Source: Halomarinibacterium sedimenti
Lineage (GTDB): Bacteria; Bacteroidota; Bacteroidia; Flavobacteriales; Flavobacteriaceae
DNA: 64,000 bases
Direction of reading: 5' to 3'
Assembly (NCBI RefSeq): GCF_019312585.1
Contig: NZ_JAHWDP010000003.1
Location: 310,001 to 374,000 of the forward strand
Shown here: positions 57,999-61,516 of the stretch, piece after piece
Layout of the letters: each line of letters begins with the position of its first letter
Numbering within the stretch: position 1 is the first letter of the stretch
The notes under the pieces: generated by a model
Told to the model about the DNA's origin: nothing
Seen by the model: only the letters and a program-made list of their open reading frames with translations
Database searches by the model: none
Made by a program: the position numbers and the translations under genes

Positions 57999-58316
57999 TT
58001 ATTTCCAACGTTCGTTAGGGAATTGATCTTCTTTATCCATGAGTTCTTTTATCTTTCTTTCCTCCCAGCTTTTATTCATAAAAGGCGCCCAGTTAAAGGC
58101 TTTAAGTGCTTGAAAAACGAGTCCTATTCCCCACCCAAAGGCGGCCCATAAAAACCAGGCGTAACGCCACTCGTTTGTGTAATAGTTAAGCCATCCTAAA
58201 AAAGTGATAAATACAATGTAGAAAACCAAGCTGGTATAAAACTTCTTCATCTCTGCTACGCGTTCTTTTGCGCGGAGGTATCGATTTTCTCTATTTTCTT
58301 TGGTATCGAATTGCAT
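57999..58316 (-). CDS. 2TM domain protein (copy 1)
   Basis: A 105-residue paralogue; the Met at MQFDTKENREN is preferred. It carries YLRAKERVAEMKKFYTSLVFY, two membrane helices, GWGIGLVFQALKAF and the tail SWEERKIKELMDKED. It lies 10 bp before copy 2 and follows the repeat that flanks the GIY-YIG gene. Confidence 0.82.
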   Translation of the reverse strand: MQFDTKENRENRYLRAKERVAEMKKFYTSLVFYIVFITFLGWLNYYTNEWRYAWFLWAAFGWGIGLVFQALKAFNWAPFMNKSWEERKIKELMDKEDQFPNERWK

Positions 58317-58408
58317 GGTGTTCGTATTTAAATTCAATGTAAAACTACTATTTGCTATCCTTTGTATAAAATCCCTTTTCCTGAACTGTCATTTTTGTGT
58401 TCTGAATT

Positions 58409-58557
58409 GTGGCTTCGATACTTCGACTTTGCTCAGCACAGGTACATTCCTTCGGAATACTCAGCCACCGATTTGGGGTCACTAAGCAATTTGCTGGTGA
58501 TTGAGTGATTTGCTTTTGCAAATTGTATCGAAATCAAGCAAATTGTATACAAGTGAC
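58409..58557. repeat. REP-like composite repeat, copy A
   Basis: Left hairpin 58409-58468: outer stem GTGGCT/AGCCAC, inner stem ATTCC-TTC-GGAAT, plus a 24-nt insert after GATAC compared with copy B. Right hairpin 58477-58557: outer stem GGTCACT/AGTGAC, inner AATTTGCT/AGCAAATT, with a second complete hairpin of the same family (about 58495-58535; GATT/AATC outer, ATTTGC-TTTT-GCAAAT inner) in its loop. It ends 6 bp from the stop of the GIY-YIG gene. Confidence 0.85.
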
Positions 58558-58563
58558 TAACTA

Positions 58564-58857
58564 TTATTTTTTATCAAACTCTTTTTTTGATAAACTAGGT
58601 AATTCACTAATCCTACTTTCAATCAAGGCTTGTTTCTTTTTCCTACTCCACCCTTGCACCTGTTTTTCTCTATAAAAAGCTTCATCAATCCTATCATACT
58701 CTTCAAAATAAATCAATCTAACTGGTAATCGTTTAGCGGTATAATTTGCTCCTGCTCCACTCTTGTGTTCTAAAACTCTTTTATCTAAATCCTTAGTACT
58801 ACCAGTGTAATAGGTGTCATCATTACAAATTAATATATACAGATATCCTTTACTCAT
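58564..58857 (-). CDS. GIY-YIG endonuclease (UPF0213 / YhbQ type)
   Basis: A 97-residue single-domain nuclease; the start at MSKGYLYILICNDD excludes an extension that runs into the flanking repeat. The GIY and YIG parts appear as LYI (6-8) and YTG (17-19), then the catalytic Arg in DLDKRVLEH, GAGANYTAKRLPVRLIYFE, and the Glu in FYREKQVQGWSRKKKQALI. All residues expected for activity are present. It is held between two copies of a palindromic repeat (6 bp and 15 bp away) and interrupts the 2TM/LytS gene series. A role in moving or processing those repeats is likely by context; DNA repair is the alternative. Confidence 0.9.
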   Translation of the reverse strand: MSKGYLYILICNDDTYYTGSTKDLDKRVLEHKSGAGANYTAKRLPVRLIYFEEYDRIDEAFYREKQVQGWSRKKKQALIESRISELPSLSKKEFDKK

Positions 58858-58872
58858 TTTACTACTTTGAAT

Positions 58873-58959
58873 GTGGCTTCGATACATTCCTTCGGAATAC
58901 TCAGCCACCGATTTTGGGTCACTGAGTGATTTTCGTTAGAAAATTGTATCGAAGTGACC
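58873..58959. repeat. REP-like composite repeat, copy B
   Basis: Left hairpin 58873-58908 (GTGGCT/AGCCAC outer; ATTCC-TTC-GGAAT inner) and right hairpin 58917-58959 (GGTCACT/AGTGACC outer; ATTTTC-GTTA-GAAAAT inner). Both contain TTCGATAC/GTATCGAA on one side and ACTCA/TGAGT on the other, so the two hairpins are inverted copies of one unit. The repeat ends 2 bp from the stop codon of the sensor kinase gene. It has the same orientation as copy A. Confidence 0.88.
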
Positions 58960-58961
58960 TT

Positions 58962-60287
58962 CTACTCATCGTCCTTCATTAACTCTCGAATCTTGCGCTC
59001 CTCCCAGTTTTTTCCTAAAAAAGGATTCCAATTAAATACCTCCATAGCATGTCCTGTAACCCCCATTCCCCATCCAACAATCGGGAAAATGGCCCACGGA
59101 AACCCTGTGGATTTTATGTTTAAAAAGATAAATACAGGCACCATAATAAGGTAAATGGTAAAGTGGATGTAAAATCCTTTTAATTCTTCTACGTGCTTCT
59201 TAGCACGCTCATATCGTTTTGCTGAAATATATTCGTTTTGTGTTGTCATGGTATTTGTTTTTTGTGTGAGTAATGGTATGGTTACCCAAAATTCTTTTTC
59301 GTTTTGTTTTACTGAAACAGGACGGTTGGTCAACAGATGATATCGTTGGTGGATATTCCGAAGTCCTACTCCTGTACTTTCTTTCATTACTTTTTTTAGC
59401 TGAATGTTATTTTTAATTATCAGGTTTCCGTCTTCCTCATAAATGGTAATATGTAATTTATTGGCTGGCGTCACTTGGTTGTGCTTTACCGCATTCTCTA
59501 ACAACAACTGAAGCGATAACGGTACTACCTTAGCTTCGGGGTTGGAAAGGGTTTCAGGGATATCGAAAATAATACTGTCCTCAAACCGCATTTTAAGTAA
59601 GGACATATACAATTGCGCAAACTTTAATTCCTCTTCCACCGTAACTAGTTCCTTGTTTTTTTGTTCCAACACATAGCGGTACACTTTGGAAAGCGACGTG
59701 GTAAATCGGGTAGCGGCATCTGGGTTTTCCTCAATAAGACTGGTAAGCACATTTAAACTATTAAATAGAAAATGCGGATCTAATTGATTCTTTAAGGCAT
59801 CAAATTGTGCCGAAGCCGTCCCCGCAATTATTTTCTGCTCTTTTACCTTTCGTTCCTGGGTATAGCGGTAGTAATAGACGGCGTAAAAAATACCTGTAAC
59901 GACTACTGAAATAAGCAATGTGACATAGTAAAAAACAGGGCGTTCGTTGTCAATAAATTCTGAAATAGAAATTCCTTCAAAAAGGATCGCACCCCCAATC
60001 CGTAATAAGAAAATGGTTACTAATGAAATAGCGATAGAACCCAAAATTCCCTTTGCAAGGTGCTGGATTTTAAACCATTCATTTTTGTAACGTGTAATAA
60101 TAAAGTAAAAGAAAAAGGCATTGGCCATATAGAGAGATATCGAATACACCTGATTAATGACAAAACGAATGACAAGTTCTTTCCCTGAAGAAATCTCCCA
60201 GCCGTTAAGGTATTCGATAACACCCACCACGATAAAGATGAGTACCCCTACAAAAAATGCTTTGCCTATTTCCTTACGTATCTTCAT
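58962..60287 (-). CDS. LytS-type sensor histidine kinase fused to a 2TM domain
   Basis: A 441-residue membrane kinase. Four membrane helices (about 10-25, 45-65, 78-97 and 118-140) precede the His_kinase domain with phospho-acceptor His172 in QLDPHFLFNSL, N box NAVKHN near 265-270 and GVGL at 306-309. Residues 355-441 are a complete 2TM domain (YERAKKHVEELKGFY, GWGMGVTGHAMEVF, NWEERKIRELM) in frame without a break. It probably phosphorylates the LytTR regulator. It shares one base with the stop of the upstream TPR gene (TAATG). Confidence 0.9.
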   Translation of the reverse strand: MKIRKEIGKAFFVGVLIFIVVGVIEYLNGWEISSGKELVIRFVINQVYSISLYMANAFFFYFIITRYKNEWFKIQHLAKGILGSIAISLVTIFLLRIGGAILFEGISISEFIDNERPVFYYVTLLISVVVTGIFYAVYYYRYTQERKVKEQKIIAGTASAQFDALKNQLDPHFLFNSLNVLTSLIEENPDAATRFTTSLSKVYRYVLEQKNKELVTVEEELKFAQLYMSLLKMRFEDSIIFDIPETLSNPEAKVVPLSLQLLLENAVKHNQVTPANKLHITIYEEDGNLIIKNNIQLKKVMKESTGVGLRNIHQRYHLLTNRPVSVKQNEKEFWVTIPLLTQKTNTMTTQNEYISAKRYERAKKHVEELKGFYIHFTIYLIMVPVFIFLNIKSTGFPWAIFPIVGWGMGVTGHAMEVFNWNPFLGKNWEERKIRELMKDDE

Positions 60288-61478: not shown

Positions 61479-61516
61479 GTGGCTTCGATACATTTGCTGC
61501 GCAAACACTCAGCCAC
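61479..61516. repeat. REP-like hairpin, solo copy C
   Basis: A 38-nt unit with the same outer stem GTGGCT/AGCCAC and the same TTCGATAC and ACTCA flanks as the left hairpins of A and B, but with a different inner stem: TTTGC-TGC-GCAAA in place of ATTCC-TTC-GGAAT. Pairing is kept although the bases differ. Confidence 0.85.

Follow-up and report, generated by a model that had tools for sequence, protein, structure and literature searches.

REPs are common repeats of bacterial chromosomes. RAYT genes are reported to be flanked by inverted REPs, with which they co-evolve and co-occur (PMC2817692). The CGTC REPs represent one of two REP superfamilies described in 2013 and occur in five phyla, chiefly in Alphaproteobacteria (Di Nocera et al., PMC3733652); that paper reports no transposase associated with them and suggests that the mobile units have vanished, or that other transposases serve these repeats. 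The enzyme groups discussed below are covered by surveys of the GIY-YIG superfamily (PMC1564403) and of HUH enzymes (PMC6006769). Among the open-licence matches listed, none linked GIY-YIG or UPF0213 proteins with REPs or palindromes, which does not show that such a link is absent from print.

The window analysed here, that is, the whole 64,000-nucleotide stretch of Halomarinibacterium sedimenti DNA, carries a locus best read as a REP-type mobile cassette in which a GIY-YIG nuclease replaces the RAYT transposase, hairpin binding and cleavage being inferred. The complete 97-residue nuclease gene reported in the initial annotation is real: an ORF of 97 codons on the minus strand (58564..58857; ATG at 58857, stop at 58564-58566) encodes a protein matching PF01541 (GIY-YIG) at E 9e-18 in Pfam. 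No other domain was matched in Pfam at E 0.001, no Y1/HUH domain was found with Pfam or NCBIfam, and NCBIfam gave only a weak GIY-YIG-type match below its cut-off. The sequence profile assigns the protein to UPF0213 (structures 1zg2 at E 5e-21 and 1ywl at E 2e-16), and the predicted structure (mean pLDDT 80) matches only these two UPF0213 structures at E <0.001, followed by Slx1 (E 0.02, weak), I-TevI (E 0.5), and UvrC (E 1.9). Residues which we take to be catalytic are invariant across 20 aligned family members. By profile and fold, the protein belongs to the same family as BH0048, EF2693, and YazA of B. subtilis, while the Bacillota genes of our sample (L260 and L261) have no flanking hairpins of the classes described below. 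The cassette is placed between two genes of the same strand, named by eye from the ORF list and locus comparison: a histidine-kinase-like gene with a C-terminal 2TM-like domain (58962..60287, minus), whose stop lies 2 bp from the cassette, and, on the other side, a 2TM-like gene (57999..58337, minus).

The gene was initially described as bounded by two same-orientation composite repeats, 6 bp from its stop and 15 bp from its start, each being an inverted pair of hairpins built from one unit. The sequence bears this out, since in each composite a plus hairpin is followed by a minus hairpin. The composites are alike at 92% over 50 nt and share further direct blocks in a repeat search; a 20-nt core occurs twice in the window versus 0.01 times expected in shuffles (<=3 mismatches). 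In each unit, the two complementary arms of the outer stem enclose an internal loop followed by a variable inner stem; the loop is formed by TCGA (TCGATAC in the long form) opposite ACTC or CTC. Examples are GTGGCT-TCGATAC-(inner stem)-ACTC-AGCCAC for the plus strand and GGTCACT-TCGATAC-(inner stem)-ACTC-AGTGACC for the minus strand.

The start-side composite consists of the units 58873..58908 (plus; sequence, unit detector, and pattern) and 58917..58959 (minus, stem GGTCACT/AGTGACC; sequence and pattern). In the stop-side copy (58409-58557), an additional unit within each hairpin accounts for the larger size. In its first hairpin (58409..58468, plus, outer stem GTGGCT/AGCCAC; sequence and pattern), a 24-nt unit (58419..58442, plus) is nested directly after TCGA, as revealed by comparison with 58873-58908, which has no insert. 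The second one (58478..58557, minus, stem GTCACT/AGTGAC, with a degenerate core), recognised as a direct repeat with 58917-58959, encloses the unit 58498..58536 (minus; unit detector and pattern). A solitary unit at 61479..61516 (plus; BLAST and pattern) has a different inner stem that is still paired. Rfam gave no match at gathering score in six loci, and a known RNA family for the window stretch was rejected, its sole chance match being far below the gathering score.

Besides the two nested units of the window, discrete units inside other units were seen elsewhere in the same genome (C8:562996-563040) and, by eye, in six other loci (L072, L096, L112, L121, L146, and L164). The nested pieces are about 24 nt long (the second window case is longer), with no target duplication visible. 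A preference for hairpin loops as targets was considered and rejected: nested cases (at least six plus the two in the window) represent 1-2% of about 450 units, and random insertion into repeat-rich stretches could explain them; the computed list of candidates consists mostly of tandem units.

In the own 2.96-Mb genome, the pattern TTCGATACN{8,38}ACTCA was matched six times (0 for the reversed-pattern control), with four matches in the two composites, one in the solitary unit of the window, and one on another contig. BLAST of the 87-bp start-side copy against this genome gave three matches at E <1e-3, namely to the query copy, to the stop-side composite, and to the solitary unit. Since five of the six pattern matches lie at or near the locus, the long-form repeat is nearly private to it in this genome; short forms were outside the search.

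Base pairing was evaluated on 214 distinct TCGATAC...ACTC stretches chosen without any pairing rule; this set superseded pair statistics on units picked for pairing, which were circular. Watson-Crick pairs occur in 86-93% of cases at outer pairs 1-4 (41-69% with shuffled partners) and in 66-87% at the first seven inner pairs (26-46% with shuffled partners), and most stem positions show several pair types, as in compensatory pairing. By this measure, the hairpin is real. The pair adjoining the core divides 450 distinct units into classes, T-A (280 units) and C-G (163 units). In the C-G class, GAC follows the four-pair stem within 5 nt in 147/175 units, and 139/175 carry TGACA or TGACG, which read as TGTC or CGTC on the opposite strand. 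In the T-A class, to which the window's units belong, GAC follows the stem in only 28/357 units. Tails read TGAC[AG] in C-G units and are commonly ACCG/ACCA-like in T-A units, and no CGTC, TGTC, or CCTC tag is read beside the stem in the window's own units. Where units were found on both sides of the gene (104 genes), the nearest ones show an outward inverted arrangement in 51 (32/68 for T-A and 19/36 for C-G), run in one direction in 44, and face inward in 9. In the window, both composites run in one direction, each being itself an inverted pair.

Homologues of the nuclease gene are present in 202/299 Flavobacteriaceae genomes (1-10 copies each, some with stops and some in tandem). The sample included 30 loci and 40 fetched regions from the best-scoring part of the list, giving 78 homologue places with the window included, and the unit detector required four Watson-Crick pairs abutting TCGA and CTC. 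A unit was detected within 300 bp of the gene at 75/78 places, on both sides at 58/78, and not at all at three. Unit density in successive bins up to 300 bp declines from 9.6 through 6.3, 5.6, and 3.8 to 2.5 per kb, and at 1.5-2.1 kb it is 0.023 per kb, which is the shuffled level; the median gap between gene and unit is 32 bp upstream and 25 bp downstream. When five pairs were required, the real core yielded 122 units versus 0-3 for each of seven altered cores.

A protein-led scan of named genomes, restricted to the best 80 of 574 confirmed stretches, covered mostly Bacteroidota, with a few Ignavibacteria, Calditrichia, Cloacimonadota, Deltaproteobacteria-type, Kuenenia, and Melainabacteria (L028/L159 and L019/L116 are the same loci occurring in both sets). 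Among these 80 homologue places, a unit was found within 300 bp at 73 and on both sides at 45, while none was detected at seven, including the Cloacimonadota locus; the density is 5.06 units per kb near the gene versus 0.10 beyond 1.5 kb. In contrast to these adjacency counts (75/78 and 73/80), the controls have a unit at only 1/34 viral-contig homologues, which are more distant in sequence, and at 2/30 loci of a sister clade of small GIY-YIG genes. Repeats scattered genome-wide with no enrichment near GIY-YIG genes would have refuted the initial interpretation; the density peaks beside the gene and then falls to the background.

Tandem copies of gene and hairpins, identical or nearly so, were noticed in L020 (G108:C1:200562 and 201074), L081 (G013), and L069 (G244). 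A second clade of small GIY-YIG genes has a member in the own genome (L003/L268, C10:101272-101514, plus strand), with a palindrome CCTGCCTGCCGGCAGGCAGG about 60-80 bp upstream and, by eye, a tRNA-like gene downstream. Among its relatives (L269-L297), several show tandem gene copies and, close by, palindromes of the TGCCTGCCGGCAGGCA type; this clade may be another nuclease-repeat pair.

The repeat variants had been expected to co-vary with the nuclease clade, and they do. On a quick tree of 213 homologues (class label for 151 genes, labels of the CGTC loci set by hand), repeat class requires 5 changes versus a shuffled mean of 38.9 and minimum of 31 (300 shuffles), and repeat presence or absence requires 12 versus a mean of 41.2 and minimum of 35. 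Only T-A units accompany 104 genes and only C-G units 40, both classes being found at 7. The C-G pattern was found in 138 of the 299 genomes, in up to 100 copies (five matches in all for the reversed control): gene and repeat are combined in 121 genomes, 17 have the repeat only, 81 the gene only, and 80 neither (OR 7.0). In the 232 genomes larger than 2.5 Mb, the respective numbers are 109, 16, 72, and 35 (OR 3.3, p 4e-4), so part of the co-occurrence effect is genome size. In these counts, "gene" means any homologue and not the matching clade, phylogeny is uncorrected, and the pattern detects one repeat class only.

The system thus resembles RAYTs and "REPtrons" in that hairpin repeats, frequently in inverted arrangement, bracket a small gene and vary in class with the enzyme clade, which satisfies the expectation of REPs co-evolving with their enzyme; in addition, solitary repeats are dispersed, and the presence of the gene is correlated with that of the repeat. 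It differs in having a GIY-YIG nuclease and not a Y1 HUH transposase, and a TCGA/CTC core or CGTC-type tags in place of the GTAG tag. Judged by this comparison, the RAYT analogy is one of architecture, the enzyme being unrelated and the repeats not being GTAG REPs.

A further link may exist with the CGTC REPs. We analysed a small, hand-picked sample of 22 homologue loci from plasmid-collection records, chosen from 47 and 34 matched records to spread over organisms, plus two genome loci; L234/L259 and L239/L258 each represent one site in two related strains. At 15/24 loci, 14 proteobacterial and one from Calditrichia, the gene has tagged palindromes within 300 bp. At the proteobacterial relatives, these palindromes possess the features of CGTC REPs: a CGTC, CCTC, or TGTC tag, an 8-9 bp stem, and a 4-5 nt loop, mostly with CCA-like tails. 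Single repeats with outward tags flank the gene at six loci (L231, L234, L253, L254, L256, and L257), in L235 the repeats point one way, and in L255 and L239/L258 they occur on one side only. Bulged variants were recognised by eye at four loci (L230, L238, L240, and L243), L241 has a TTCGA..CTCAG dimer, and no tagged palindrome was found within 300 bp in L233, L237, L260, and L261.

The pattern CGTCATYCC..GGRATCC was counted in whole records, with other variants uncounted and 0 matches for the reversed control. In Aeromonas caviae (4.94 Mb), its only two occurrences lie on opposite sides of the gene. The 718-kb record of Rhizobium CIAT894 has 7, always within 1.7 kb of the gene, and the 648-kb record of Azospirillum lipoferum has 9, including 3 at the gene. 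In the N. gonorrhoeae record there are 115, which are scattered but include both gene sides. In the Aeromonas record and the Rhizobium plasmid, as in the window's own genome, all or nearly all copies found are located at the gene. Because related enzymes adjoin CGTC REPs in Proteobacteria, the GIY-YIG relatives are putative candidates for the missing enzyme of this superfamily. The Flavobacteriaceae C-G class units carry the tag as well, while the T-A units of the window are untagged and have a longer inner stem; the window's own class is tied to the CGTC REPs through the common enzyme family and through the C-G class, which is tagged and has a TCGA/CTC core as well. As a side observation, the copy on a Planktothrix agardhii plasmid (L240) has an MmeI-type restriction gene on one side and the DISARM gene drmA on the other, and many TGTCATTCTGAG repeats surround it.

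Mobility of the cassette was addressed by comparing sites with and without it. For the window junction, 30 loci around the kinase were compared, the window being one of them. In all 29 relatives' loci, the 2TM-like gene follows the kinase, tblastn reveals no GIY-YIG gene in the locus, and no hairpin unit is present at the junction; downstream, a single weak unit was found, at a distance of 0.9 kb in L217. In L223, the kinase stop is cut by a contig end, and no GIY-YIG gene or unit occurs anywhere in the locus. The closest two relatives are only 65-66% identical in the kinase, so the exact cassette edges are unreadable there. The second case is A. lipoferum, whose sufB and sufC are separated by the gene and four repeats, while neither the gene nor a CGTC repeat is present between them in A. 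oryzae, A. ramasamyi, Azospirillum B510 (flank identity over aligned pieces 95-96% for these three), and A. argentinense (91%); the B510 gap contains another palindrome. Judged from the aligned flanks, this is a clean empty site. Thus, empty sites in relatives, which the initial annotation proposed to look for, are available, and the outcome that would have spoken against it, the same syntenic position in all relatives without any empty site, was not met. The empty sites could be losses, and those for the window junction lie in distant relatives. In Shinella (L235 versus L302 and L303), divergence is too high to read the edges. We also noted that the gene resides between sufB and sufC both in A. 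lipoferum (annotated) and in Shinella PSBB067 (by sequence similarity; L232 and L257) with different CGTC repeats, which may reflect repeated insertion at this place or an old insertion common to both.

Cassettes from unrelated sites can be aligned up to the outer hairpin edge. The alignment of L049 with L067 (413 bp in L049, 83.6%) extends from TCACTTCGAG to CTCGAACTGAC, and that of L048 with L051 from TGTCACTTCGAG to CTCGAACTGACAA; for L061 and L075, located in one genome, the left edge agrees and the right end falls inside the hairpin. In the remaining pairs, the alignment continues past the edge or ends before it, depending on divergence or on shared flanks. The extra nucleotides at the edges correspond to the tag described above for the C-G units.

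The main rival is a free-standing homing endonuclease, which would cut gene-less hairpin sites so that the gene is copied in during repair, the repeats serving as homology arms. The GIY-YIG catalytic domain shared with I-TevI-type enzymes, the location of the gene between repeats, the tandem copies of gene and repeat, and the C-G class repeats dispersed without the gene in many genomes are all compatible with it. However, the window protein has 97 aa and no further Pfam domain, and the tested empty sites (29 relatives' junctions without a hairpin, four Azospirillum species without a CGTC repeat) lack the recognition site expected at an empty allele, if the hairpin is assumed to be that site; homing is therefore disfavoured, and we consider it unlikely. 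A general location of the cassette inside the loop of one larger hairpin was also rejected, which speaks against homing as well: this arrangement was found in 6/158 cases versus a control mean of 1.9 and maximum of 5.

Slx1 is a structure-specific nuclease, and it is the nearest, though weak, fold match of our protein beyond UPF0213. One can suggest, then, that the enzyme resolves or trims REP hairpins or cruciforms and is kept beside the repeats, which are moved by another enzyme. Yet the gene comes or goes together with the repeats, and many lineages show it again lying between them (other shared genes had no systematic search), which makes this explanation quite improbable. We attach very little weight to a housekeeping repair role, a UvrC-like back-up with incidental repeats: such a role was proposed for the three COG2827 genes of Caulobacter, a CGTC species, one of these genes having an SOS box (PMC1839093), but the patchy distribution in 202 of the 299 genomes, the variable copy number, the stops, the empty sites, and the repeats had already weakened it. 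That an ordinary gene just lies among common intergenic repeats is scarcely credible, even though related palindromes are widespread and one genome has 100 C-G class copies, given the distance profile, the viral and sister-clade controls, and the genomes having the repeat almost only at the gene.

We regard it as probable that the gene and its hairpins represent one REP/REPtron-type mobile cassette with a stand-alone GIY-YIG nuclease specific for the bracketing hairpin, cleavage and movement being inferred. The comparisons show that gene and hairpins are jointly present or absent at the sites tested, that the hairpins stay with the nuclease lineage across phyla and switch class with it, and that units are also found singly, scattered, or embedded in other units as discrete pieces. 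From the nested cases, we claim only that units move as discrete pieces. The hairpin, with its outer stem, conserved TCGA/CTC internal loop, variable inner stem, and, in many relatives, an outward-facing 4-nt tag (CGTC or TGTC), would be recognised by the nuclease. The protein would bind the hairpin, either extruded or on single-stranded lagging-strand DNA, and nick near its foot or tag, and host replication or repair would then generate a copy elsewhere, of the hairpin alone or of hairpin-gene-hairpin; solitary hairpins would be non-autonomous passengers. All support is comparative, and hairpin binding, nicking, and the movement route remain inferred, without experimental evidence. Counting against the cassette reading are also the homologue places without a detected unit, the genomes having gene or repeat alone, and the missing CGTC tag in the window's own units; furthermore, we know of no transposition route for a hydrolytic GIY-YIG enzyme of such size. 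With the exception of binding, nicking, and the route of movement, the overall interpretation of the initial annotation is supported, as neither outcome that would have refuted it occurred.

With more reserve, we incline to the view that a second REP superfamily, independent of RAYTs, has UPF0213-type GIY-YIG nucleases as its dedicated enzymes and unites the CGTC/TGTC REPs and the Bacteroidota TCGA/CTC hairpins in many phyla. It would be a class of minimal transposable elements of about 0.4-0.6 kb with a single-domain, hydrolytic, hairpin-reading nuclease of about 95 residues. If the GIY-YIG genes do encode the enzyme, the open CGTC question could be put to the test using a 95-residue protein and a 25-nt hairpin. 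If true, two unrelated nuclease folds would have converged on one REP life style, and a function would be suggested for a widespread family of small proteins.
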